NCBI RefSeq assembly: GCF_009862785.1
Contig: NZ_WWHU01000001.1
Coordinates: 372,001 to 436,000, forward strand
Length of the DNA stretch: 64,000 bases
Direction: 5' to 3'
Source: Gordonia sp. SID5947
GTDB lineage: Bacteria > Actinomycetota > Actinomycetes > Mycobacteriales > Mycobacteriaceae
Shown: piece after piece, positions 6,456 to 24,500 of the stretch
Layout: every line of letters starts with the position of its first letter
Position numbering within the stretch: position 1 is the stretch's first letter
Made by a program: the position numbers and the translations under genes
The notes under the pieces: generated by a model
Told to the model about the DNA's origin: nothing
Database searches by the model: none
What the model saw: the letters and a program-made list of their open reading frames with translations, nothing else

Positions 6456-6504
6456 CCACGCCCTGGTGCACACCGGGGCGGTCACGCCCGCTACCTTTTG
6501 AGGT

Positions 6505-9500
6505 GTGACTTCGCTTCGTGGCCGCGGCCGCGTACCCAGTGCCGGCCGTCTCGGGCTGCTCGAGAACACCGCCCCGGGTCACCTCGCCGAACTGGAGTGG
6601 GACAAGGACGATTCGGTCGACGTGCTGTGGGCGCTGTCCCGTGCGCCCGACGCCGATCTGGCACTTCGGGCACTGATCCGTCTCAAGGGTGCGGCCGGTG
6701 CCGACGAGTGGGCCGAGGTCGACGACCGCATCCGGACCGACACGGGATTTCGCGGTCGGCTTTTCGCCGTACTCGGGGCTTCCGACGCGCTCGGCGACCA
6801 CATGGTTGCCGAGCCGTCGAGCTGGCGCCTGCTGCTCGGCGCGACGCTGCCGTCCGTCGACGAGATGAACGAGCGCATGCTGGCGTCGGTGGAAGCCACA
6901 CCCGAGCCCGGCGCGCTCGAGATGGGCAACAAGGTCTACCGTGCGGCGATCACCGGACCCAAGGCCGTGGTCGCGTTGCGGACCGCATACCGGAATCTCC
7001 TGTTGCAGTTGGCCGCCCGCGATGTCGCGCCGACCGTTCAAGACGAGCCGGTGATCTACCTCCCGGAGGTCGGCGGCTTCCTCGCCGACCTCGCGGATGC
7101 GGCGCTCACCGCCGCACTGGCGGTCGCGGTCGCCGAAGTGTGCGGCGACCAGCCGCTGCAGGTGCGGCTGGCGATCATCGCGATGGGCAAATGCGGTGCG
7201 CGTGAGCTGAATTACGTGAGCGATGTCGACGTGGTGTTCGTCAGTGAACCCGCAGACGGTGTGGCCGCCCGGATCGCCGGCGAGGTGATGCGGGTCGGAT
7301 CGCTGGCCTTCTTCGAGGTCGATGCCGCCCTCCGGCCGGAGGGCAAGGCAGGCGCACTCACCCGGACCCTCGAGTCGCATGTCGCCTACTACCGGCGGTG
7401 GGCCAAGACGTGGGAGTTCCAGGCGTTGCTGAAGGCTCGCGCGATGACCGGGGACATGGAACTGGCCGACGACTATCTGGCGGCGGTGAGCCCGATGGTG
7501 TGGACCGCCGCCGAGCGCGAGGATTTCGTTCCGGAGACGCAGGCGATGCGACGCCGCGTCGAGTCGCTGGTTCCGGAGGAGTTGCGCGAGCGCAATCTCA
7601 AGCTCGGCAGCGGAAGCCTTCGCGACGTCGAATTCGCCGTACAGCTCCTGCAGATGGTGCACGGACGCGTTGACGAGGAGATCCGCGTCAAGGCCACCGT
7701 CGACGCGCTCAGTGCGCTGACTGCCGGTGGTTACGTCGGCCGTGACGACGGAGCGAATCTCACTGCGTCCTATCAATTCCTGCGCGCGCTCGAACATCGG
7801 CTCCAGCTGCAGCGGCTGTCGCGCACCCACCTGCTCCCGGCCTTCGAGGACGAGGGGAACATGCGTTGGCTCGCCCGGGCCGCGCACATCCGCCAGGAGG
7901 GCGACCGTGATGCGACGGGCGTGCTGCGCGAAGAGCTCAAACGTCACAAGTCGCGTATCCGCAGATTGCACGAGAAGCTCTTCTACCGTCCGCTCCTCGA
8001 TGCGGCCACCCGGTTCAACACCGACGAACTGACGCTCACCGACAAGTCGGCCGAACGTCGTCTGTCGGCGCTCGGCTACGCGAAACCCGAACGCGCACTG
8101 AGTCATATCCGTGCTCTCGCGTCCGCCGCAGGACGGCGGGGGCAGATCCAGTTGCTGATACTGCCGTCGTTGCTCGAGTGGATCGGCAACACCCCCGATC
8201 CCGATGCCGGGTTGCTGAACTATCGCCGGCTCTGCGACGTGATGGACAAAGAGGAGTGGTTCATCCGGCTGTTGCGCGACGACGGTGTCGTCGCCGAACG
8301 GCTGATGCACGTGCTTGGCACGTCGGAGTACATAGCCAATCTGCTCATGCGGTCACCCGAGGTGATCCATCTGTATTCCGATGGGGCCAACGGCCCCAAG
8401 CTGTGTGAGGTCCAGCCGAAGGACGTCGCCCGCGGGCTCATCGCGTCGACGGTGCGTCAGCCGGATCTCAAACGTGCAGTGGCGGCTGCGCGGTCGCATC
8501 GCCGCTTCGAGCTCGCGCGGGTCGCTTCCGCCGACATCCTCGGCATGATGGACGTCCCGGCGGTGTGCGCGGCGCTGTCGTCGGTCTGGGCATCGGTGCT
8601 CAATGCCGCGCTCACCGTCGTGATCGCCGAGTCGGAGCGTGACCGCGGGACCCCGGCTCCCGCTCGGATCGCGGTGATCGGCATGGGTCGACTCGGTGGT
8701 GGCGAACTCGGCTACGGGTCGGATGCGGACGTGCTCTTCGTCTGCGAGCCGGAGCCGGACGTCGATGAGGCGGCCGCTGTCCGCTGGTCGCAGACGATCG
8801 CGGAGAAGGTTCGCTCGATGCTGGGATCGCCCAGCGAGGATCCCCCGCTGGAGGTCGACACCGGACTCCGTCCGGAAGGCCGTAACGGCCCGGTCGTGCG
8901 GACGCTCAGTGCGTACGCCGCCTACTACGACCAATGGGCGCAGCCATGGGAGATCCAGGCGTTGTTGCGGGCCCATCAGGTCGCAGGCGACGATCAGCTC
9001 GGGATCGAGTTCCTGCACATGGCCGATCGCATCCGATACCCCGAGGGCGGGGTGTCGGGAGAGGCGGTCAAGGAGATCCGCCGGATCAAGGCCCGAGTCG
9101 ATTCCGAGCGTCTGCCGCGGGGCGCCGATCCGGCGACCCACACCAAACTGGGGCGCGGCGGTCTCGCCGACATCGAATGGACCGTCCAGCTCATCCAACT
9201 GCGGTACGCCCACAGCTACCCGTCGTTGCACAACACGTCCACACTCCAGGTCCTCGACGCCATCGGGGCGGCGGAGCTGTTGGGGGAGAACGACGTGGCG
9301 CTGCTGAAGGAAGCCTGGCTGACCGCCACCAACGCGCGCAACGCCTTGGTACTGGTCCGCGGGAAGCCGATCGATCAGCTTCCCGCCCCGGGCAGGCAAT
9401 TGCGCGCGGTCGCATACGCCGCCGGCTGGCCAGAAGATCAGGCGGCCGAATTCCTGGAGAACTATCTGCGCGTCACGCGTCGGGCAAAGGCCGTGGTGCG

Positions 9501-9519
9501 CACGGTGTTCGGAGCGTGA
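6505..9519 (+). CDS. glnE: Bifunctional glutamine synthetase adenylyltransferase/adenylyl-removase
   Basis: A 1004-residue GlnE, close to the 994 residues of M. tuberculosis Rv2221c. It has the two tandem nucleotidyltransferase-type halves: the N-terminal adenylyl-removase domain with [19 protein letters not shown] (near residue 240) and the C-terminal adenylyltransferase domain with [20 protein letters not shown] (near residue 735). Each half is followed by a helical segment containing [11 protein letters not shown] or [11 protein letters not shown]. It attaches and removes AMP on GlnA1 (Tyr405 in this window), switching glutamine synthetase off under nitrogen excess. The start is a GTG at 6505. 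Its stop overlaps the start of the next gene by four bases, so the two are probably translationally coupled. Confidence 0.96.
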
Positions 9520-10466
9520 TCGGCCCGCTCATCCGGTTCGTGTCGTTGCTCGTCGGATGGGTTCTGCTCGCCGCGGCCGCGATCGCGGTCTGGTTGCACC
9601 ACTTCCCGTCTCGCGGTGAGCTCAGCGTGTATCTGACCGGCGCGGTCCCGTGTGCGCTCGTCGCCGCGGTGGTGGCCGTCGCGATCTTCGCCGCCACCCG
9701 GCGGTGGATTCTGCTGACGGTCGCGATGATCGTGTCGACCGCGCTCTGCTACACACAGGTGCCGCTGGCGCGGGCGCAGGATGCCCCTACGGGCCGTCCG
9801 GTCACCGTTGTCACCGCGAACATGTTGTTCGGTGGAGCCGATGTCGACGCGCTGGCCCGAGAGACCGCGACGGTCGATGCGGACTTCGTGTCGGTGCAAG
9901 AGGTGACCCCGGAGGCTCTGGCGCGGCTGCGGGCGAGCTCCATCGGTCGCCTGTTGCCGTTCACCTTCGCGCTGCCGGGCCCCGGGGCGGCCGGCACCGC
10001 GATGTTCGGCCGCACACCGCTGTCCGGCCAGGCGGCCATCGAGGGCACCGCGTTGCACAACCTCGCCGGGGTGATCGACCTTCCCGGCGCCCCGCGGACG
10101 CGGGTGCTCGCAGTACACCCGGGCGCCCCGCTGCCGGGCCGGACGACGACCTGGCGTAGCGATCTCGACCGACTCGGGGTGTACCTGCGTGCGCTGCCGC
10201 CGGGCCGGCTGATCGCGGCGGGGGACTTCAACGCGACCTGGGACCATGCCGGTTACCGTGATCTGTTGCGCGACGGGATCGTCGACGCGACGGAGCAGTC
10301 GGGCGCCGGGTTCCAGCCGACATATCCGACCGACCGCCTCGGTGGACATCCGCTGGTCGCCATCGACCACGTCATCAGTCGTGGATTCGTCGCGACGTCC
10401 GTACGGACCTTCGATCTGCCGGGTTCCGATCACCGAGGAGTGGTGGTAACACTGGTGCCGACATGA
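9516..10466 (+). CDS. Membrane-anchored endonuclease/exonuclease/phosphatase family protein
   Basis: A 316-residue protein starting at GTG 9516, which overlaps the glnE stop (GTGA). Three hydrophobic segments within the first 85 residues ([18 protein letters not shown], then [16 protein letters not shown] and [14 protein letters not shown]) are followed by an EEP domain: [27 protein letters not shown] and [10 protein letters not shown], which contain the metal-binding Glu, Asp-Asn and Asp-His pair of the family. The catalytic domain is expected outside the membrane. The family includes phosphodiesterases acting on DNA, sphingolipids and phosphoinositides, and the substrate here cannot be read from sequence. 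The next gene overlaps it by four bases. Confidence 0.85.
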
Positions 10467-14654: not shown

Positions 14655-16088
14655 TCAGCAGTCGTAGTAGAGCGAGAACTCGTACGGGTGCGGACGGATC
14701 TGCACCGGCTCGATCTCGTTCTCACGCTTGAGCGCGATCCAGGTCTCGATGAGATCCTCGGTGAACACACCACCGGCGGTGAGGTATTCGTGATCCTCTT
14801 CGAGCTTGTCGATCACCGCTCCCAGCGAGGTGGGTGCCTGCGGGATGCCCTTGGCCTCCTCCGGCGGTAGCTCGTAGAGGTCCTTGTCGACGGGCTCGTG
14901 CGGCTCGATCTTGTTCTTGATGCCGTCGAGACCGGCCATCATCATGGCCGCGAACGCCAGGTACGGGTTGCCCGAGCTGTCCGGGCAACGGAACTCGAGG
15001 CGCTTGGCCTTCGGGTTGTTGCCCGTGATCGGGATACGCACGCATGCACTGCGGTTGCGCTGGCTGTAGACCAGGTTGATCGGGGCCTCGTAGCCCGGGA
15101 CCAGGCGCTTGTAGGAGTTCACCGTGGGGTTGGTGAACGCCAGCAGCGACGGCGCGTGGTGCAGGATGCCGCCGATGTAGTAGCGCGCCAGATCCGACAG
15201 GCCCGCATAACCGGCCTCGTCGTGGAACAGCGGCTTGCCGTCCTTCCACAGCGACTGATGGGCGTGCATGCCCGAGCCGTTGTCACCGAAGAGCGGCTTC
15301 GGCATGAAGGTGACCGTCTTGCCGTTCGCATACGCGGTGTTCTTGATGATGTACTTGAACAGCAGCACATCGTCGGCCGCATGCAGCAGCGTGTTGAACT
15401 TGTAGTTGATCTCGGCCTGGCCGCCGGTGCCCACCTCGTGGTGGCCGCGCTCGAGCTCGAAGCCGGCATTCTGCAGGTTGGTCGACATCTCGTCGCGCAG
15501 GTCCACATAGTGGTCGTACGGCGCGACGGGGAAATAGCCGCCCTTGGGGCGAACCTTGTAACCGAGGTTCGGGCTGCCGTCCGGATCGGTCGGCGAACCG
15601 GTGTTCCACCAGCCCGACTCCGACTCGACCTCGTAGAAGGTGCCGTTCATCTGCGAGTCGAACGAGACCGAGTCGAAGATGTAGAACTCGGCCTCGGCAC
15701 CGAAGAAGCAGGTGTCCGCGATGCCGGTCGAGGCCAGGTAGTCCTCGGCCTTGCGGGCGACGTTGCGCGGGTCGCGGCTGTAGGCCTCGCGGGTGAACGG
15801 ATCGTGGACGAAGAAGCTGATGTTCATCGTCTTGGCCCGGCGGAACGGATCGATCCGCGCGGTGGCCGGGTCGGGCAGCAGCATCATGTCCGACTCGTCG
15901 ATCGACTGGAAGCCGCGAACCGACGAACCGTCGAAGGCGAGGCCGTCCTCGAACACGTCCTCGGTGAACGCCGAAGCCGGGATCGAGAAGTGCTGCATCA
16001 CACCGGGCAGGTCACAGAAGCGGATGTCGACGTACTCGACACCCTCTTTCTTGATGCCCTCGAGAAGTTCTTCTTTGCTGCTGTACAC
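14655..16088 (-). CDS. glnA1: Glutamine synthetase type I GlnA1
   Basis: The main glutamine synthetase: 477 residues against 478 in M. tuberculosis Rv2220, with near-identical blocks such as [60 protein letters not shown] and [12 protein letters not shown]. Tyr405 in [11 protein letters not shown] is the site adenylylated by GlnE. The protein forms a dodecamer that makes glutamine from glutamate and ammonia. The start is a GTG with AAGGAG nine bases upstream. It is single-cistron, with a GlnR-type operator 106-143 bases upstream and a strong terminator downstream, so it should be controlled both transcriptionally and by adenylylation. Confidence 0.97.
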
Positions 16089-16193
16089 CGTGCGGTGACT
16101 CCTTAACTTGTTCGGGTGGCCAGATCACCTGGCCCGCCTCACCCGCCACCGACTTGCAGCGGCGGATCTCAGCCAGAACCGTATGGACGCGAG

Positions 16194-16231
16194 GTTGCCC
16201 GCGCGTCAAGGCCGTGTTTCTCCTGTGTTAC
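16194..16231 (-). promoter_or_regulatory. GlnR-type operator and promoter of glnA1
   Basis: Read on the glnA1 strand: GTAAC, 6 bases, GAAAC, 6 bases, TTGAC, 6 bases, GCAAC. The actinobacterial GlnR consensus is alternating GTnAC and GAAAC boxes spaced by six. The first pair is perfect and the second has one mismatch per box. The TTGAC box may also serve as a -35, with CATACG about 18 bases further as -10. Confidence 0.75.
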
Positions 16232-16429
16232 ACGCGGTCGATGCTCGGGCGACACACTGACGTTCCGGATCGCAACGATGCCATGTCCGCCGACGGAGCA
16301 CCATCTATACCCCGGAAAGATCGCCCCACGGAGAACGATGGCGGGCGGCCGGACGACCGCGACTACCATGGCAGTCATGTGTCAGGCGAGTACGGACAGC
16401 ACGAAGCGCGGCGAACCGGGAGGCCGGTG

Positions 16430-16930
16430 ATGGGCAGGGCCACCGGTTCCTGGCTGTCGGGGCCGCCCGTCGGGCCCAGCGGCGGGGACGTCGAATACCG
16501 CGGTCAGGACCTCGGTCTCCCCGCATCCGGGCCCGGTGCACTCGCCGGCGGCTGGCAACGCACCGCCGCCCTCCTCGTCGACTGGTTGCTGGCCGGCGGG
16601 ATCTCGTTGCTCTTCGTGTCCTTCGGGTCTCCCACACTCGGCACGACCGTGCTCGCCGTCTGGTTCGTACTCGGTGTGGTCGCGGTCACCTTCTTCGGTT
16701 TCACCCCTGGCCAGTTCGCGCTCGGACTCCGGGTGGCCCGGGTCGACCTCGGTCCGGACCGCGCCGAGGCGGAAGCGACGGGAAAGGTTCCGTTCGCGGC
16801 CGTCGGCATCCTGCGGACACTCGGGCGCCAGGTGCTCATCGTGTTCCTCGTCCCGGCGGTCATCAACGACTACAACGGCCGGGCTCTCCACGATCGGGCC
16901 ACCGGGACCGCGTTGGTCCGGACCCGCTGA
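16430..16930 (+). CDS. RDD family membrane protein
   Basis: A 166-residue protein corresponding by position to Rv2219A. A Gly/Pro-rich N-terminus is followed by GGWQRTAALLVDWLLAGGISLLF (the Arg-Asp-containing first helix of the RDD family), a second helix TTVLAVWFVLGVVAVTFFGF, the loop GQFALGLRVARVD and a third helix GRQVLIVFLVPAV. The family is found in transport or stress-related membrane functions, with no defined reaction. The start at 16430 is backed by GGGAGG six bases upstream; the frame is open further 5' but overlaps the glnA1 control region. It converges on the permease gene with 14 bases between. Confidence 0.82.
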   Translation: MGRATGSWLSGPPVGPSGGDVEYRGQDLGLPASGPGALAGGWQRTAALLVDWLLAGGISLLFVSFGSPTLGTTVLAVWFVLGVVAVTFFGFTPGQFALGLRVARVDLGPDRAEAEATGKVPFAAVGILRTLGRQVLIVFLVPAVINDYNGRALHDRATGTALVRTR

Positions 16931-16944
16931 CCCACCGCCCACCG

Positions 16945-18486
16945 TCAGTCGGTGTGACCCTTGAGGATCTCGTCCTCGATGGTGCCGCCGAGTCCCTCCT
17001 GTGCGGGATCGAAGCCGTGCAGGCCGCCGGTCACCGCGTACTCCTCCTCGGGTGACAACACCAATCGGTGGCGGCCGTAGAGCCCGAAGACGATCAGCCC
17101 GATCGCATAGAAGACCACGATCGCGATCACCGCGTCGCGGTAGTCGGGGTTGATCAGGACGCCGATGAAGGTGATCGCCGCGATGACGAACGCGATCACC
17201 GCGCCGGTGACGCCGGTCGGGCTCCGGTAGGGCCGCCGCGCGTTCGGGAACTTCCGGCGCAGCAGGACGAACGAGACCATCTGCAACATGTAGGCGAGTA
17301 CCGCGCCCCACACCGCGATGTTCAGGACGATCGCGCCCGCCCCGGAGATCCAGTATTCGATCACGAGCAGTGCGATCAGTCCGACGACGGCGCCCGCGAT
17401 CAGCGCCACGTACGGGGTCTGACGGGACCCGGTGAGCGAGAGCACCTTCGGGTAATAGCCGGCCCGGCTCAGCGAATAGAGGTTGCGTCCGTAGGCGTAC
17501 ATGATGCCCTGCAGGCTCGCCAGCAGTCCGATGAGCGCGAACGCCGACAACACCGACGCCCAACCGGCCGGCAGAAATGCCCGGAACCCGTCGAGCAGCG
17601 GCTCGCCGGAGTCGCCCAGCGCGGCCGCACCGGTCACCGCCGGGTTGAGGAAGAACACGATGGCGGCGCAACCGACGAGGGTGACCATGCCCCAGATGCC
17701 TGCACGTGGGATGTCGCGTGTCGGTTCGTGCGCCTCCTCGGCGGCCAGCGGTAATTCTTCGATGCCCAGGAAGAACCACATCGCGAACGGCAGCGCGTAG
17801 AGGATGCCCATCACGCCGAACGGCAGGAAATCACTCGACCCCGTCTTGGTGGCGTCCGGGTCGATGTCGAGGAGTTTGCCGAAGTCGACTGCGCCATTGG
17901 CCATCGCGAGGATGGCGAACAGCACGAGGATGCCGACCGACACGACGGCGACCACGATCGCGAACCGGAATGATGCCTCGGCTCCCCAGGAGTTGAGCGC
18001 GATGAAGAGCGCGTAGAGGATGATCCACCACACCCACGCCGGCATGCTGAGGCCGAAGAGGTCGTCGGTGATGGCGTCGGCGTACGACGCGGAGAAGTAG
18101 ACCACGACACCGGTGGTGAACACGTACTCGATCGTCTCGGCGAAGCCGGTGACGAAGCCGCCCCAAGGACCCATGGCGGCACGTGCGAACGAGTATGCGC
18201 CGCCGGTGTGCGGCATGGCCGCCGACATCTCACCGATCGAGAACAGCATGCCGAAATACATGACGACGATGATCACGGTGGCGACGCCGAGCCCGCCCCA
18301 TCCGGCCTGGCCGATGCCATAGTTCCAGCCGGAGAAGTCGCCGGAGATAACCGCGGCGATCCCGATGCCCCAGATGCCCCAGAAACCGGCGCTGCGTTTG
18401 AGTTGGCGCTTCTCGAAATAGCCTTCCTCGGCATGGGTGTAGGTGGCGCCCGCCGATTTCATCGCGGGGTTCGGGACATCTGCCAT
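16945..18486 (-). CDS. APC-family amino acid permease, ethanolamine permease (Eat) type
   Basis: A 513-residue, 12-helix transporter. The segments EKRQLKRSAGFWGIWGIGIA, VISGDFSGWNYGIGQAGWGG, FFLGIEELPLAAEEAHEPTR and YAYGRNLYSLSRAGYYPKVL match the Eat ethanolamine-permease branch as remembered from Pseudomonas and Rhodococcus. The start at 18486 precedes a hydrophilic 45-residue N-terminus; the frame is open further upstream without support. It is divergent from the glnA4-puuD-aldC-SDR-gntR run and shares its control region, so its likely job is import of the substrate that GlnA4 glutamylates. Ethanolamine is the best guess; another small amine is possible. Confidence 0.82.
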   Translation of the reverse strand: MADVPNPAMKSAGATYTHAEEGYFEKRQLKRSAGFWGIWGIGIAAVISGDFSGWNYGIGQAGWGGLGVATVIIVVMYFGMLFSIGEMSAAMPHTGGAYSFARAAMGPWGGFVTGFAETIEYVFTTGVVVYFSASYADAITDDLFGLSMPAWVWWIILYALFIALNSWGAEASFRFAIVVAVVSVGILVLFAILAMANGAVDFGKLLDIDPDATKTGSSDFLPFGVMGILYALPFAMWFFLGIEELPLAAEEAHEPTRDIPRAGIWGMVTLVGCAAIVFFLNPAVTGAAALGDSGEPLLDGFRAFLPAGWASVLSAFALIGLLASLQGIMYAYGRNLYSLSRAGYYPKVLSLTGSRQTPYVALIAGAVVGLIALLVIEYWISGAGAIVLNIAVWGAVLAYMLQMVSFVLLRRKFPNARRPYRSPTGVTGAVIAFVIAAITFIGVLINPDYRDAVIAIVVFYAIGLIVFGLYGRHRLVLSPEEEYAVTGGLHGFDPAQEGLGGTIEDEILKGHTD

Positions 18487-18563
18487 CGAGGGCTCGCTCT
18501 CACTAGGACGCCGATCGTGTGCGAGGCGGACGCCTCGGCAACTGATAAGGCAGAATAAGTCGT

Positions 18564-18647
18564 CAATGGTTGGCTCACCCACCTTTAAACGAAACGATCC
18601 GGTTAAATCCGGCGGCGATGACCAGGCGGACGGTCCTCCAATGGTTG
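18564..18647. promoter_or_regulatory. Divergent control region with a repeated CAATGGTTG element
   Basis: The 218 bases between the permease and glnA4-like starts contain CAATGGTTG twice in the same orientation, at 18564-18572 and 18639-18647, 75 bases apart. The GntR-type regulator at the end of the operon is the obvious candidate to bind here; this is inference. Between the copies, TTTAAACG and GGTTAAAT form AT-rich patches suited to a promoter. Confidence 0.4.
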
Positions 18648-18704
18648 ACTGTGGCCGACCGGCATGAGTCGGTCGCCGACGAGCGCGCACAGATGGAGTA
18701 TCGG

Positions 18705-20066
18705 ATGACCGACGGCATGCTGGACCTGACCGACCTACAGGAGCGCGTCGCCGCCGATCGGATCGACACCGTGATCGTGGCTTTCCCGGATATGCAGGGG
18801 CGGCTCACCGGGAAGCGGATCTCGGCTCGCCTGTTCCTCGACGACGTCGCCGAGCACGGCTCGGAATGCTGCGACTATCTGCTGGCGGTCGACGTCGAGA
18901 TGAACACCGTCGAGGGCTATGCGATGTCGAGTTGGGACACCGGCTACGGCGACATGGTGATGGTGCCCGACCTCTCGACGCTACGTCTGGTGCCCTGGCT
19001 CCCGGGAACGGCGCTGGTGCTCGCGGACCTGAACACCACCACCGGATCGCCAGTGACGGTCGCGCCGCGCAACATCCTTCGGCGACAGCTCGAGCGACTC
19101 GAGGACCGTGGCTTGGTGCCGTTCGTCGGCACCGAGCTCGAGTTCATGGTGTTCGACAACACCTATCGTGAGGCATGGGCGAAGCGCTATCACGAGTTGA
19201 CCCCGGCGACCGACTACAACCTCGACTACGCCATGGTCGCATCGACTCGGATGGAGCCGCTGCTGCGTGACATCCGGCGGGGGATGAGTGGTGCCGGAAT
19301 GTATTGCGAGGGGGTCAAAGGTGAATGCAACCTCGGCCAGCAAGAGATCGCGTTTCGCTACAACCGCGCGCTCGTCACCTGTGACAACCACACGATCTAT
19401 CGCAACGGCGCCAAGGAGATCGCCGACCAGCACGGCAAGAGCCTGACGTTCATGGCAAAATTCGACGAGCGGGAGGGCAACAGCTGCCACATCCACATCT
19501 CGCTGCGGGAGCCGGACGGCACACCGGTCTTTGCCGATGACGATGCGCCGAACGGGATGTCGCCGATGTTCGGGCACTTCGTCGCAGGCATCATCGCGTC
19601 ACTGGCCGAGCTGACGTTGTTCTACGCGCCGAATATCAACTCCTACAAGCGCTTTGTCGACGGCAGCTTTGCTCCGACCGCGATCGCGTGGGGGATGGAC
19701 AACCGTACCTGCGCCTTGCGGGTGGTCGGTCACGGACCGGGTATGCGTGTGGAGTGCCGGGCGCCCGGCGGTGACGTCAACCAGTACCTCGCCGTCGCGG
19801 CGCTCATCGCAGGTGGTCTCGACGGTATCGAACGCGGACTCCCGTTGCCTGAGGTCGCCACGGGCAACGCGTATCTGGGATCGGCACAACGCCTGCCGAC
19901 ATCGCTGGCGGAGGCCGCCGAACTGTTTGCCGGTTCCGCGCTGGCCGAGCGTGTCTTCGGTGCGGACGTGGTCGAGCACTACCTCAACAACGCACGCGTC
20001 GAACTGGCGGCGTACGGTGCGGCCGTGACGGATTGGGAGAGGGTGCGTGGATTTGAACGACTCTGA
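18705..20066 (+). CDS. glnA4: Glutamine-synthetase-like gamma-glutamyl-amine ligase (GlnA4 type)
   Basis: A 453-residue class I glutamine-synthetase homologue close in size to M. tuberculosis GlnA4 (Rv2860c). It has the fold motifs FPDMQGRLTGKRI, GTELEFMVF, CNLGQQEIAFRYNRAL, LTFMAKFDEREGNSCHIHIS and NINSYKRFVDGSFAPT, but lacks the adenylylation tyrosine context. Proteins of this branch in Streptomyces ligate glutamate to polyamines or ethanolamine rather than ammonia. ATG 18705 is preferred over earlier in-frame starts because GGAG lies six bases upstream and the earlier region carries the promoter. It overlaps the hydrolase gene by 20 bases. The four genes glnA4-hydrolase-aldC-SDR have the same order as Rv2860c to Rv2857c. 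Confidence 0.88.
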   Translation: MTDGMLDLTDLQERVAADRIDTVIVAFPDMQGRLTGKRISARLFLDDVAEHGSECCDYLLAVDVEMNTVEGYAMSSWDTGYGDMVMVPDLSTLRLVPWLPGTALVLADLNTTTGSPVTVAPRNILRRQLERLEDRGLVPFVGTELEFMVFDNTYREAWAKRYHELTPATDYNLDYAMVASTRMEPLLRDIRRGMSGAGMYCEGVKGECNLGQQEIAFRYNRALVTCDNHTIYRNGAKEIADQHGKSLTFMAKFDEREGNSCHIHISLREPDGTPVFADDDAPNGMSPMFGHFVAGIIASLAELTLFYAPNINSYKRFVDGSFAPTAIAWGMDNRTCALRVVGHGPGMRVECRAPGGDVNQYLAVAALIAGGLDGIERGLPLPEVATGNAYLGSAQRLPTSLAEAAELFAGSALAERVFGADVVEHYLNNARVELAAYGAAVTDWERVRGFERL

Positions 20067-20808
20067 GATCACTCCGGTCGTCGGGATGACCACCTATCTG
20101 GAGCAGGCGCAGACGGGTGTGTGGGATGTGAGCGCAAGTTTCCTGCCGCGCGTGTACTTCGACGGGGTCGCACGCGCCGGTGGTGTCGCGACGTTGCTGC
20201 CGCCCCAATCGGCCACCGAACGCGTTGCCGAGCGTGTCGTCGCAGGCGTGGATGCGCTGGTACTGACCGGTGGCAAGGACCTCGATCCGAACTCGTATGG
20301 GCAGCAACGTCATCGGAGTACCGATGTCCCGCGCGTCGACCGGGACGCATGGGAGTTCGCGCTGCTCGGAGCCGCATTGCATGCCGGAGCGCCGGTGCTC
20401 GGCATCTGCCGCGGTGCCCAGGTGCTCAACGTGGCCTTCGGTGGGACACTGCACCAGCACCTGCCGGACGTGCTCGGGCACTCGCGGCACCAGGCCGGGA
20501 ATGCGGTGTTCACGACGACGCAGGTGGCGATCACCCCCGGCACCCGTCTCGCGTCACTGATGGGTGAGTCGGCGTCGGCCGAGTGCTATCACCACCAGGC
20601 GATCGACCGCGTGGGAGACGGGCTCGTCGTCAGCGCTCGCGACGACGAGGGTGTGATCGAGGCGGTGGAACGTTCCGGCGAGCCCTTTGTCCTTGCTGTG
20701 CAGTGGCATCCAGAGGAGCGTCTCGACGATCTCCGGCTCTTTGCGGCCGTCGTCGACGCGGCGCGAGTACGGGCGTCCCGACGAATGGAGGTGAGTTCAT
20801 GGCCGTGA
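20047..20808 (+). CDS. Gamma-glutamyl-gamma-aminobutyrate hydrolase family protein (PuuD-like, peptidase C26)
   Basis: A 253-residue class I glutamine-amidotransferase-fold hydrolase. The triad is visible: Cys121 in GICRGAQVLN, His221 and Glu223 in VQWHPEE. ALVLTGGKDLDP and FGGTLHQHLPD are typical of PuuD. It should cleave the gamma-glutamyl bond of the end product of the cassette and return glutamate. If the substrate is ethanolamine-derived the product would be gamma-glutamylglycine, releasing glycine. It begins with GTG inside the end of glnA4 and ends 10 bases inside aldC, indicating translational coupling. The counterpart in gene order is Rv2859c. Confidence 0.88.
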   Translation: MDLNDSEITPVVGMTTYLEQAQTGVWDVSASFLPRVYFDGVARAGGVATLLPPQSATERVAERVVAGVDALVLTGGKDLDPNSYGQQRHRSTDVPRVDRDAWEFALLGAALHAGAPVLGICRGAQVLNVAFGGTLHQHLPDVLGHSRHQAGNAVFTTTQVAITPGTRLASLMGESASAECYHHQAIDRVGDGLVVSARDDEGVIEAVERSGEPFVLAVQWHPEERLDDLRLFAAVVDAARVRASRRMEVSSWP

Positions 20809-22184
20809 CAGAACTCGTGAACCCGGCGACCGCCGAGGTGTTCGCAGAGGTCGACATGCTCGACGGCGCTGACGTCGATGCGGCGGTCGCGAGGGCGGAG
20901 AAGGCGCAGCTCCGGTGGGCCGGGCTCGATCCGGCCGCGCGGGCAACCGCGCTGCGTGCCTTCGCGGCCGTCGTCGGAGAGCACCGATCCGAACTCGCAG
21001 ATCTCGAGGTCGAGAATTCGGGACATCCGCTGGGGCAGGCGTCCTGGGAGGCCGGACACGTGCAGGACGTGCTGAACTACTATTCCGCGGCCCCGGAACG
21101 ATTGGCAGGCAAGCAGATCCCGGTCGCCGGAGGAATCGACATCACGTTCTCCGAGCCTGTCGGCGTGGTCGGGGTGATCACGCCATGGAACTTTCCGATG
21201 ACGATCGCATCCTGGGGCTTCGGTCCGGCGCTCGCCGCCGGCAACGCGGTGATCGTCAAGCCGGCCGAGTGGACGCCGCTCACATCGATTCGACTCGCGG
21301 AACTCGCGGTCGAGTCCGGTCTGCCCGAAGGTCTGCTGCAGGTGCTGCCGGGCCGCGGTGATGTGGTCGGAGCGGCGATCATCGGCCATCCGGGGATCGG
21401 CAAGGTCGTCTTCACCGGGTCGACGCGGACCGGTAGGCGGGTGATGGAGCAGGCCGCGCTGTCCGTCAAGCAGGTCACACTCGAACTGGGTGGCAAGAGC
21501 GCCAACATCGTCTTCGCCGATTCCGATCTGGCCCGGGCGGCGGCCACCGCGCCCTACGGCGTTTTCGACAATGCCGGTCAGGACTGCTGTGCCCGGAGCC
21601 GGATATTGGTGCAGCACAGTGTATACGACGAGTTCATGGAGCGGCTGGAGCCGGCCGTGTCCGCGGTGCGAGTGGGAGATCCGCGTGCCGAGGACACCGA
21701 GATGGGTCCCCTGGTGTCGCGGCCTCACTGGGAGAAGGTCGCGTCCTACGTCACCGAGGGGGCGCCCGTTGCCTTCCGCGGTACCGCGCCCGAGGGGCCC
21801 GGATTCTGGTTTCCCCCGACGGTGCTGACGCCGCGACCGGGTGATCGCAGTGTGCGCGAGGAGATCTTCGGGCCGGTGGTGACGGTCCAGGCGTTCGACG
21901 ACGAGGCGCAGGCCGTCGCGATGGCCAACGACTCTCCGTACGGGTTGTCCGGATCGATCTGGACCGAGAACCTGTCGCGGGCGATTCGGGTGTCGCAAGC
22001 CGTGTCCGCCGGGAATCTCTCCGTGAACTCGCATTCGGCGGTGCGGTATTCGACCCCGTTCGGTGGCTACAAACAGTCGGGAATCGGGCGCGAACTCGGA
22101 CCTGATGCGCCGTCGGCATTCACCGAGACCAAGAACGTCTTCATCGCGGTCGATCCCGGCCCACCCTCAGAAGGGACATCATGA
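20799..22184 (+). CDS. aldC: NAD(P)-dependent aldehyde dehydrogenase
   Basis: A 461-residue aldehyde dehydrogenase starting at ATG 20799 with GGAGGTGAG seven bases ahead. The cofactor and active-site elements are present: VGVITPWNFPMTIA, VFTGSTRTGRRV, Glu229 in LELGGKSAN, catalytic Cys263 in NAGQDCC, and EEIFGPVV with FGGYKQSGIGRELG near the end. Its place between a gamma-glutamyl ligase, a gamma-glutamyl hydrolase and a dehydrogenase suggests a gamma-glutamyl-aldehyde substrate, as PuuC has in the Puu pathway. The M. tuberculosis equivalent by order is aldC (Rv2858c). Its last four bases overlap the SDR start. Confidence 0.92.
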   Translation: MAVTELVNPATAEVFAEVDMLDGADVDAAVARAEKAQLRWAGLDPAARATALRAFAAVVGEHRSELADLEVENSGHPLGQASWEAGHVQDVLNYYSAAPERLAGKQIPVAGGIDITFSEPVGVVGVITPWNFPMTIASWGFGPALAAGNAVIVKPAEWTPLTSIRLAELAVESGLPEGLLQVLPGRGDVVGAAIIGHPGIGKVVFTGSTRTGRRVMEQAALSVKQVTLELGGKSANIVFADSDLARAAATAPYGVFDNAGQDCCARSRILVQHSVYDEFMERLEPAVSAVRVGDPRAEDTEMGPLVSRPHWEKVASYVTEGAPVAFRGTAPEGPGFWFPPTVLTPRPGDRSVREEIFGPVVTVQAFDDEAQAVAMANDSPYGLSGSIWTENLSRAIRVSQAVSAGNLSVNSHSAVRYSTPFGGYKQSGIGRELGPDAPSAFTETKNVFIAVDPGPPSEGTS

Positions 22185-22966
22185 GCAGCACAGTCGATCT
22201 GACACAGCGTCTGTCCGGCAAGGTCGCCGTCGTCACCGGCGGGGCCGGCGGGATCGGACTCGCCTCGGCGCGCCGGATGCGGGCGGAGGGTGCGACGATC
22301 GTCATCGCCGACCTCGACCGTGCGGCGGGTGAGCGGGCGGCCGACGAGCTCGACGGCCTGTTCGTCGCCGTCGACGTCGCGGATGGGGGCCAGGTGGACG
22401 AGCTGTTCGACACCGCGGCACAGCGGTACGGCCGCGTCGACATCGCCTTCAACAACGCGGGGATCTCGCCACCCGAGGACGATCTCATCGAGACGACCGA
22501 ACTCGATGCCTGGGATCGGGTTCAGCAGGTCAACCTGACGTCGGTCTACCTGTGCTGCCGTGCTGCTCTCCGCCACATGGGTCCGGCCGGTCGCGGATCG
22601 ATCATCAATACCGCCTCGTTTGTCGCCGTGATGGGCTCGGCCACATCGCAGATCTCCTACACCGCCTCCAAGGGGGGTGTGCTGGCGATGTCACGCGAAC
22701 TCGGCGTGCAGTACGCCCGACAGGGCATCAGGGTCAACGCACTGTGCCCCGGGCCGGTGAACACCCCGTTGCTCAAGGAACTGTTCGCCAAGGATCCGGA
22801 GCGCGCGGCCCGGCGTCTGGTCCACGTCCCGGTGGGCCGGTTCGCCGAACCCGAGGAGTTGGCGGCCGCCGTGGCGTTTCTCGCCAGCGACGACGCGTCG
22901 TTCATCACCGCGTCGACGTTCCTGGTCGACGGCGGTATCAGCTCCGCGTACGTGACACCGCTGTAG
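22181..22966 (+). CDS. Short-chain dehydrogenase/reductase
   Basis: A 261-residue classical SDR. The Rossmann motif TGGAGGIG (near residue 19), NNAG, the catalytic Tyr160 and Lys164 in YTASK and the late motif ALCPGPVNTPL are all intact; the acidic residue IADLD after strand 2 suggests NAD rather than NADP. The start overlaps the aldC stop (ATGA). Its place in the operon suggests that it oxidises a hydroxyl of the gamma-glutamylated substrate to the aldehyde taken by AldC. This favours an amino alcohol such as ethanolamine over a diamine, which would need an amine oxidase or transaminase. The counterpart is Rv2857c. Confidence 0.92.
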   Translation: MSSTVDLTQRLSGKVAVVTGGAGGIGLASARRMRAEGATIVIADLDRAAGERAADELDGLFVAVDVADGGQVDELFDTAAQRYGRVDIAFNNAGISPPEDDLIETTELDAWDRVQQVNLTSVYLCCRAALRHMGPAGRGSIINTASFVAVMGSATSQISYTASKGGVLAMSRELGVQYARQGIRVNALCPGPVNTPLLKELFAKDPERAARRLVHVPVGRFAEPEELAAAVAFLASDDASFITASTFLVDGGISSAYVTPL

Positions 22967-22973
22967 GTCTGGA

Positions 22974-23726
22974 ATGACGATCCCCGCTCGTTCGGAACAA
23001 CTCGCGGATGCGCTCCTGGCGCCGGTCCGTCCGGCGAACGCCTTCGAGGAGACCGTCGGACGGCTGCTGCAACTGATCCGCCTCGGAGTATTCGAGCCAG
23101 GGGAGTCGATCCCTCCCGAACGTGAGTTGGCGGCGCGCCTGGGTGTCAGCCGAGACACCGTCCGGGAGGCGATCAAGGCCCTGGCCGACGCCGGGTTCCT
23201 GGTGTCGAGACGCGGCCGTTACGGCGGCACATTTCTGAACGACGTCCTTCCGGCGCCCGGTTCGGTCGACGCCACCGTCGGTCCGGTGGGGGATGAGGGG
23301 GCGCCGATCGCCCGTGCCGACCTCGACGATGCGTTGCGGCTCAGGGAGATCCTCGAGGTCGGCGCCGCGCGGATGGCGGCCGAACGCACCTTCTCGGCCA
23401 CCGAACGCGAGGCGCTGTGGGCTCGCCTGACCGACATGCGGGTCGCGGGTGGCGACGACTATCGCCGACTCGACTCCCGACTTCATCTGGCGATCGCCGA
23501 GGCCGCGGGGGCGCCGTCGCTGGTGAGCGTGGTCGCCGACAACCGGATGCGGATCAATCGTCTTCTCGACCGCATTCCGCAACTCGAACCGAACATCACG
23601 CATTCCGATGAGCAACACGAGGCCATCGTGATCGCCATCCTCACCGGGAATCCCGACGGCGCTGCCGATGCGATGCGGGGCCACCTCGAGGGTACGGCGA
23701 CCCTGCTACACGGTTTCCTCGACTGA
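22974..23726 (+). CDS. GntR family transcriptional regulator, FadR/FCD type
   Basis: A 250-residue regulator. The winged helix lies at about residues 20-90 (LIRLGVFEPGESIPPERELA, ARLGVSRDTVREAIKALADA, VSRRGRYGGTF). A long alpha-helical FCD domain follows, with DDALRLREILEV, RLDSRLHLAIAEAA and HSDEQHEAIVIAI, whose Asp and His residues normally bind a metal and a small organic acid. It begins seven bases after the SDR stop, so it is the last gene of the cassette and probably regulates it through the divergent permease/glnA4 region. The effector is unknown; a pathway intermediate is likely. Confidence 0.9.
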   Translation: MTIPARSEQLADALLAPVRPANAFEETVGRLLQLIRLGVFEPGESIPPERELAARLGVSRDTVREAIKALADAGFLVSRRGRYGGTFLNDVLPAPGSVDATVGPVGDEGAPIARADLDDALRLREILEVGAARMAAERTFSATEREALWARLTDMRVAGGDDYRRLDSRLHLAIAEAAGAPSLVSVVADNRMRINRLLDRIPQLEPNITHSDEQHEAIVIAILTGNPDGAADAMRGHLEGTATLLHGFLD

Positions 23727-23759: not shown

Positions 23760-24500
23760 TCAGCCTCGACGTCGCGCGGTTCGCTGCATACCGCGGACCT
23801 TGGCGTTGCCCGGGATGGGCCCCTTCGGCATGCCCGGCCCCTGCTGATTCCGACCGCCCAGCGCGGCGAGCCGACCTTCGAGGGCGTCGATGCGCTTGCC
23901 GTCGATGTTGCGGGGCAGTTTGTTGATGTGCTTCTCCAGCTTGCTCAACGGCACCAACCCGTCGTCGTTGCCCACCACGATCTCGTAGATCGGGGTGTCA
24001 CCGACGACCCGGGCGACTTTCTTCTTCTCTTGTGCGAGCAGGGTTTTGACGCGCGTCGGCGAACCTTCGCCGACCAGGATCACACCCGGCTTGCCGATCA
24101 CCCGATGGACCGCGTCGAGATGGGCGTTGCCCGACACCGCCTGCTTGACCCGCCACTGACCGCGCATGTTGCCCAGCGCCCAACCCGCGGCTCCGGCCTG
24201 GCCCTCGGCCTTGGTGTAGACGGTGCGCTGCACGCGTCGTCCGAACAGGATGAACGCGGCGAGCAGCCCGAGCACGATGCCCAGCGGAAGCAGTAGCCAG
24301 ACCGACCCGAAGACCAGCCCGAGGACGACGAAGACTGCGACGATCAGAACGAACAGCCCGACCATGTACGGGATCAGCCGTTTGTCTTCCTTGCGCTGCA
24401 TCTGGAAGGCCTGCCACAGCTGCTTGTAGCGCTCCCGCGACGCCTGCCTGCGGGCCTTCTTCGCTTCGGCCTTCGCCTCTTTGTCTTGCGCCTTTGCCAT
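23760..24500 (-). CDS. DUF4191 domain membrane protein
   Basis: A 246-residue protein corresponding to Rv2219. It has a highly charged Lys/Ala N-terminus (KEAKAEAKKARRQASRERYK), two adjacent membrane helices (YMVGLFVLIVAVFVVLGLVF and WLLLPLGIVLGLLAAFILF) and a soluble part with KPGVILVGEGSPTRVKTLL and PRNIDGKRIDALEGRLAAL. The family is restricted to actinobacteria and has no assigned function. Its constant place upstream or beside lipA/lipB is positional conservation only. No RNA feature was seen between it and lipA. Confidence 0.88.
   Translation of the reverse strand: MAKAQDKEAKAEAKKARRQASRERYKQLWQAFQMQRKEDKRLIPYMVGLFVLIVAVFVVLGLVFGSVWLLLPLGIVLGLLAAFILFGRRVQRTVYTKAEGQAGAAGWALGNMRGQWRVKQAVSGNAHLDAVHRVIGKPGVILVGEGSPTRVKTLLAQEKKKVARVVGDTPIYEIVVGNDDGLVPLSKLEKHINKLPRNIDGKRIDALEGRLAALGGRNQQGPGMPKGPIPGNAKVRGMQRTARRRG

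Follow-up and report, generated by a model that had tools for sequence, protein, structure and literature searches.

What is a glutamine synthetase (GS)-like enzyme doing in the company of a permease, three further enzymes and a regulator, close to the gene for glutamine synthetase itself? The question is raised by a locus of Gordonia sp. SID5947, analysed here in a window of 64,000 nucleotides (contig NZ_WWHU01000001.1, positions 372,001 to 436,000), in which six genes occupy positions 16945-23726 between the genes for an RDD membrane protein and a DUF4191 membrane protein; open reading frame calls and family scans reproduce exactly the coordinates and gene content of the original prediction. 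From gene content and homology we judge it quite likely that these genes form a single cassette for the use of ethanolamine by the actinobacterial gamma-glutamylation route.

In the proposed pathway, ethanolamine would be imported by an Eat-like permease of the APC family (16945-18486, minus strand, 513 amino acids), and GlnA4, a GS-like gamma-glutamyl-amine ligase (18705-20066, plus strand, 453 amino acids; PF00120), would join it to glutamate with ATP. The alcohol of gamma-glutamylethanolamide would be oxidized to the aldehyde by a short-chain dehydrogenase (SDR; 22181-22966, plus strand, 261 amino acids; NF004713, 503.8 bits, above the cut-off of 404), and the aldehyde to gamma-glutamylglycine by an aldehyde dehydrogenase (ALDH; 20799-22184, plus strand, 461 amino acids; PF00171, 515.5 bits); a PuuD-like C26 gamma-glutamyl hydrolase (20047-20808, plus strand; PF07722, 223 bits) would then release glutamate and glycine. 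An EpuRI-like GntR/FCD regulator (22974-23726, plus strand, 250 amino acids; PF07729 and PF00392) is expected to repress both divergent promoters through a palindrome at 18565-18586, with the substrate or an intermediate relieving repression. Ethanolamine is the predicted substrate in Gordonia on the strength of orthology, and every pathway step there, the regulator ligand and the operator are likewise predictions. Along the plus strand glnA4 overlaps the hydrolase gene by 20 bases, the hydrolase gene overlaps that of the ALDH by 10 and the ALDH gene that of the SDR by 4, with a gap of 7 bases before the regulator gene; the permease gene and glnA4 are divergent, with 218 bp between them.

The reading rests above all on comparison with Streptomyces coelicolor, whose GlnA4 makes gamma-glutamylethanolamide in vitro, which needs glnA4 on ethanolamine and in which EpuRI acts as a repressor; a Streptomyces permease gave better growth on ethanolamine (PMC6529630, mBio 2019). 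The cluster described in that paper comprises SDR, ALDH, GlnA4, regulator and amidotransferase, plus a permease in some species, and the SDR, ALDH and hydrolase steps are given there as predictions as well. Six reverse-transcription PCR primers from the same paper, for SCO1612, SCO1613 and SCO1614, match one locus (L075, genome G946) with 0 mismatches and in the right genes, and G946 is therefore taken to represent S. coelicolor or a very close relative. In this search 12 of 392 Streptomyces genomes were matched and 6 were fetched, 5 of them with glnA4 at the site; the match in the sixth (G1071, L072), which has no glnA4 there, was set aside as chance. All five proteins of SCO1611-SCO1615, i.e. 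SDR, ALDH, GlnA4, GntR/FCD regulator and C26 hydrolase, have counterparts in the Gordonia cassette, with identities to the G946 cluster of 61-62% for GlnA4, 62% for the ALDH (SCO1612) and 71-72% for the SDR (SCO1611); the next-best SDR in G946 reaches 42%. The palindrome is also common to both. The layouts differ in that the regulator and hydrolase genes are on the opposite strand in the Streptomyces loci and on the same strand as glnA4 in Gordonia, and in that S. coelicolor lacks a permease whereas the Gordonia cassette has one. These counterparts, the Eat-like permease, a regulator with a conserved site and the lack of an EutB match in the genome support the predicted sequence: uptake, glutamylation, oxidation in two steps, and a hydrolysis that yields glutamate and glycine.

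The identity of the ligase was assessed from model scores, residues and phylogeny. GlnA4 falls under the cut-off of every NCBIfam model, including those for type III GS (243.7 bits against 469.6) and type I GS (TIGR00653, 218.5 bits against 429.15), and these scores rule out a true GS. The GS metal ligands can all be read off the alignment (E144, E146, E207, E214, H262 and E350), and Phe322 takes the place of the Glu at GS position E327; Phe at this position is reported for S. coelicolor GlnA4 too (PMC6529630). Among the products of the five GS-family genes of G946, the S. coelicolor-type GlnA4 shares 61.8% identity with the window GlnA4, compared with 27.1%, 33.6% and 28.4% for the proteins taken to be GlnA, GlnA2 and GlnA3. 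In a maximum-likelihood tree (reading frames by tblastn; 5 rows near kept ones left out) the window and S. coelicolor GlnA4 proteins share one clade of 38 rows, two of which are the same protein, with support of 100/100 and apart from GlnA, GlnA2 and GlnA3. The row for the polyamine ligase GlnA3 sits on a long branch and its exact place is unsure, yet it lies outside this clade. The closest solved chains are 11zs (429 bits) and 5dm3 (414 bits), the next scoring 176.

Two further sets of GS-family genes were seen. L046, L047, L101, L102 and L103 carry GS-like ligases (41-44% identical) that form a clade of their own; in four of these five loci (not L101) a second GS-like copy directly adjoins, and the surroundings include several matches to SDR and one to GntR. 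Outside the window, a GS-family gene at G000:C1:2979103-2980126 was matched as three separate stretches in different open frames, which suggests a broken gene or sequencing errors.

The remaining enzymes carry the residues of their families. In the hydrolase C121, H221 and E223, and in the ALDH E229 and C263, were assigned by motif; the SDR has S146 (by spacing), Y160 and K164, and its D44 suggests NAD as the cofactor. Against PDB entry 4wec the SDR scores 468.8 bits.

The gene set keeps its company well beyond this genome. We compared 48 loci, hand-picked and thus a non-random sample (8 from Gordonia and 40 others), and set aside 9 in which GlnA4 was less than 56% identical or absent (L072, L098-L104 and L108). 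In the 39 loci with a GlnA4 at least 56% identical, SDR and ALDH are both nearby in 38, the C26 hydrolase in 36, GntR in 24 and an Eat-like permease in 20. Within Gordonia, 59 genomes were searched, the source genome included: 9 have a GlnA4 with an identity of 78% or higher, and another 2 have a relative at 42-43%; the closest GlnA4 besides its own record, among the matches listed, is that of Gordonia insulae (90%). Eight of the nine carriers (8 of 59 genomes) hold the whole six-gene cassette in the same order between RDD and DUF4191. In G007, the remaining carrier, five of the genes are found at another site, without this permease. Because the order is kept at the site in seven further Gordonia genomes, and SDR and ALDH accompany GlnA4 in 38 of 39 loci, the arrangement is not due to chance.

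The original prediction described the cassette as inserted at the glnA locus, and the comparison bears this out. The neighbours are glnA1, a true type I glutamine synthetase (14655-16088, minus strand; TIGR00653, 681.8 bits, above cut-off), the RDD gene (16154-16930, plus strand, start uncertain; PF06271, 24.1 bits, at the cut-off) and the DUF4191 gene (23760-24500, minus strand; PF13829, 308 bits), and both cassette ends lie tail to tail with them, the permease gene against RDD and the GntR gene against DUF4191. Ten glnA1 regions were sampled from Gordonia genomes in which the cassette is absent from this site (among them G007), and in three (L048, L049 and L053) RDD and DUF4191 are 146-189 bases apart. 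Other DNA, of 3.1-7.5 kb, fills the interval in the other seven (L050, L051, L052 and L054-L057); the one filled interval inspected, L050, holds genes for a TetR regulator and for SDR, patatin-like, flavin-containing monooxygenase (FMO)-like and amidohydrolase proteins. The interval looks to be a site that tolerates insertions. A FastTree phylogeny of GlnA1, LipA and DUF4191, built from the 8 carriers together with 9 of the 51 Gordonia genomes that lack the cassette here (L051 was left out since its lipA is cut by the stretch end), splits the 8 carriers from the 9 others with support of 0.938, consistent with a single gain, or a single loss, in a Gordonia subclade. A foreign origin read from base composition was rejected: the GC fraction is 0.64-0.68 over 16-24 kb and 0.64-0.72 around it, with no outlier.

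The gap between the permease gene and glnA4 holds the palindrome AATGGT-N10-ACCTTT (18565-18586), the predicted operator of the GntR/FCD regulator; where a GntR gene is a neighbour, the site is conserved in the glnA4 promoter. It is found in 20 of the 24 loci with such a neighbour and in 0 of the 15 without (Fisher p 1.5e-7, kinship ignored). When half-site spacings of 0-20 were scanned in 50 glnA4 promoters, allowing at most one mismatch, a spacing of 10 gave 21 matches, 11 gave 1 and all others 0. An exact search for AAWGGT-N10-ACCWTT finds one place in the 5.1 Mb genome. Promoter comparison also reveals a second conserved element, the half-site AATGGTTGAC (18640-18649, plus strand). Of the 12 loci with this element and the palindrome, 10 have the two 73-76 bases apart and the other two have them 85-86 bases apart.

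Genome-wide counts covered 59 Gordonia and 121 Streptomyces genomes (G946 left out). The exact palindrome occurs in 9 of the Gordonia genomes: in 7 of the 9 glnA4 carriers, always beside glnA4, and in 2 of the 50 others, not beside glnA4; the remaining two carriers (G018 and G050) have forms with one mismatch. The Streptomyces form, TAAGGT-N10-ACCWTT, derived from seven promoters, occurs in 110 of 121 genomes, against 8 of 121 for the control, and at 115 places, for 30 of which loci were obtained; in 29 of these 30, one of which (L212, G352) was among the seven, it lies between glnA4 and the regulator gene. In 14 of the 30 a second, relaxed match lies downstream of the regulator gene (e.g. L213, around 595). 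EpuRI gel shifts show binding of the glnA4 promoter and of its own promoter (PMC8998196), and the palindrome is probably the operator of an EpuRI-type repressor. A candidate GlnR box in the 218-bp gap was partial and unconserved by eye, and was dropped.

Several observations weigh against this account of the cassette. The permease was predicted to be of the Eat type and part of the cassette. It is Eat-like, as TIGR00908, the ethanolamine permease model, is its best match; its score of 356.5 bits is under the cut-off of 381.75, and its gene, being divergent, lies outside the operon. It is 41-43% identical to its Streptomyces counterpart, and the permease type is swapped or missing in relatives' glnA4 loci. 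The regulator and hydrolase are only about 45% identical to those of S. coelicolor (45% to SCO1614 and 46% to SCO1615). At the position of GS Y179, in the amine pocket, the window protein has Met183, S. coelicolor Val and Chromohalobacter Glu. Four of the 24 loci with GntR lack the palindrome (L090, which has a spacing-11 form, L095, L096 and L106). A reversed control pattern occurs in 12 of the 59 Gordonia genomes; therefore the pattern alone is not rare, and it is position that counts. EpuRI is also reported to shift several other promoters (PMC8998196), which would not be expected of a site with about one occurrence per genome.

Further comparison places the permease in a divergent Eat-like subgroup, under the model threshold. 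TIGR00908 is the best model for all seven permeases tested from glnA4 loci; four reach its cut-off (two from Streptomyces, unlike that of Gordonia, and those of L092 and L096), and those of L083, L090 and L106 fall under it, as does the window's. The permease is the sole match in its own genome at E<=1e-30; the Streptomyces genome G671 has a single match, at 43%, inside its glnA4 cluster, and G946 has none at E<=1e-30, in agreement with the published lack in S. coelicolor. Solved structures gave weak matches only (best 50.5 bits). Six loci (L045, L078, L086, L087, L097 and L107) have a second APC permease without the Eat-like one; its L045 member, the only one scored, matches TIGR00907 with 295.3 bits against a cut-off of 598.3, a group to which we take the yeast choline and ethanolamine carrier Hnm1 to belong. 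In L045, the locus of G007, the divergent partner of glnA4 (6500-9646, minus strand) is this TIGR00907-like permease followed by a pyridoxal phosphate (PLP) group II decarboxylase (PF00282; best NCBIfam model 169.9 bits against 900), and the pair faces the same palindrome. The decarboxylase may produce ethanolamine from serine; the other compared loci have no close copy of it (best 31%, L100).

Some of these points would also suit the same chemistry on another short amino alcohol, such as 3-aminopropanol, 2-aminopropanol or serinol, with ethanolamine a minor substrate. The enzyme types ask only that the substrate carry primary amine and primary alcohol groups, the permease belongs to a divergent Eat-like subgroup, and the amine pocket is altered from GS in the window, S. 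coelicolor and Chromohalobacter proteins as aligned, differently in each; since its residues differ among the three, pocket identity is no proof of one substrate. We nevertheless consider this unlikely, as the ligase and SDR are 62-72% identical to S. coelicolor proteins for which ethanolamine was the tested substrate, and the permease is still best matched by an ethanolamine permease model. Breakdown of a polyamine, gamma-aminobutyric acid (GABA) or another amine by a Puu-like pathway is far less probable. It would account for the PuuD-like and PuuC-like NCBIfam matches of the hydrolase and ALDH, both under cut-off, and for a ligase of the same GS superfamily. The Puu pathway has an amine oxidase at the step where this cassette has an SDR; GlnA4 is separate from GlnA2 and GlnA3 in the tree, and its score against gamma-glutamylputrescine synthetase (PuuA, NF045547) is 194.7 bits against a cut-off of 650, on which a polyamine ligase identity was rejected. 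The S. coelicolor glnA4 mutant, moreover, is reported to keep its growth on polyamines (PMC6529630).

Equally improbable for Gordonia is that the cassette serves to detoxify or recycle the cell's own ethanolamine and not to exploit an external nitrogen source. Four loci of one genus, probably mycobacterial, lend this some substance, as L080 (cut by a contig end), L081, L084 and L085 hold the four enzymes with no permease, regulator or palindrome nearby; in Gordonia, however, permease, regulator and palindrome are kept together in 8 genomes. Uptake and breakdown of ethanolamine through gamma-glutamylation thus remains the preferred reading. The loci inferred to be mycobacterial share the same four genes, with GlnA4 67-80% identical, and differ among themselves: permease and regulator are kept in L082 and L083, and neither is present in L081, L084 or L085. 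In M. tuberculosis the glnA4, C26, ALDH and SDR genes are presumably Rv2860c-Rv2857c.

Other routes to the same nutrient set the cassette in context. Ethanolamine use by the Eut pathway depends on ethanolamine ammonia-lyase, and EutB gave 0 matches in this Gordonia genome and matched only E. coli among 14 control genomes; the Eut pathway was rejected on this ground, in keeping with the prediction of ethanolamine use without Eut. Over 448 residues the structure 5dm3 matches a Chromohalobacter israelensis protein with full identity; the gene neighbourhood of that protein comprises RpiR, an N-formylglutamate amidohydrolase, a TRAP permease, an ALDH and an iron alcohol dehydrogenase. A matching layout with the same predicted reactions is described for ethanolamine in Phaeobacter, and the authors of that work state that related genes of C. 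salexigens have a demonstrated role in ethanolamine use (PMC10132767, Sci Adv 2023). The Chromohalobacter and Phaeobacter systems resemble that of Gordonia in a related ligase (46% identity) and in the predicted order of reactions (PMC10132767), and differ in using the iron alcohol dehydrogenase, N-formylglutamate amidohydrolase, TRAP permease and RpiR where Gordonia has SDR, C26, APC and GntR. It looks as if two lineages run the same four reactions with a related ligase and mostly unrelated helpers.

All of the cassette evidence fits the route, but the route is already in print (PMC6529630, PMC10132767) and is therefore not a new proposal; also published are the independence from Eut and a gene set that includes permease and regulator. 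A literature search on Gordonia, ethanolamine and gamma-glutamyl did not find the cassette in Gordonia, and a 2022 review (PMC9397018) places Mycobacterium under a different, amination route, though it mentions GlnA4 homologs in mycobacteria. What is new here is the palindrome between the permease gene and glnA4: we found no such motif in print, and the words palindrome, inverted repeat and operator are absent, where searched, from the main texts of PMC6529630 and PMC8998196. Tentatively, the observations could be drawn together as a one-operator regulon, in which repressors of the EpuRI type, across Streptomyces, Gordonia and mycobacteria, would read AAWGGT-N10-ACCWTT, about once per genome, to control ethanolamine uptake and breakdown; lineages that lack both regulator and permease, and the site with them, might then run the enzymes constitutively on their own ethanolamine, and the G007 decarboxylase could add a route from serine to glycine.

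The actinobacterial form of the pathway, of which only the first step has been shown biochemically, in S. coelicolor, is extended here to a complete cassette, seen in Gordonia and in relatives that are probably mycobacterial. Ethanolamine is a product of lipid breakdown, and this soil bacterium has the genes for its predicted use next to its principal nitrogen gene; with an operator predicted, the regulation of ethanolamine use can be put directly to the test.

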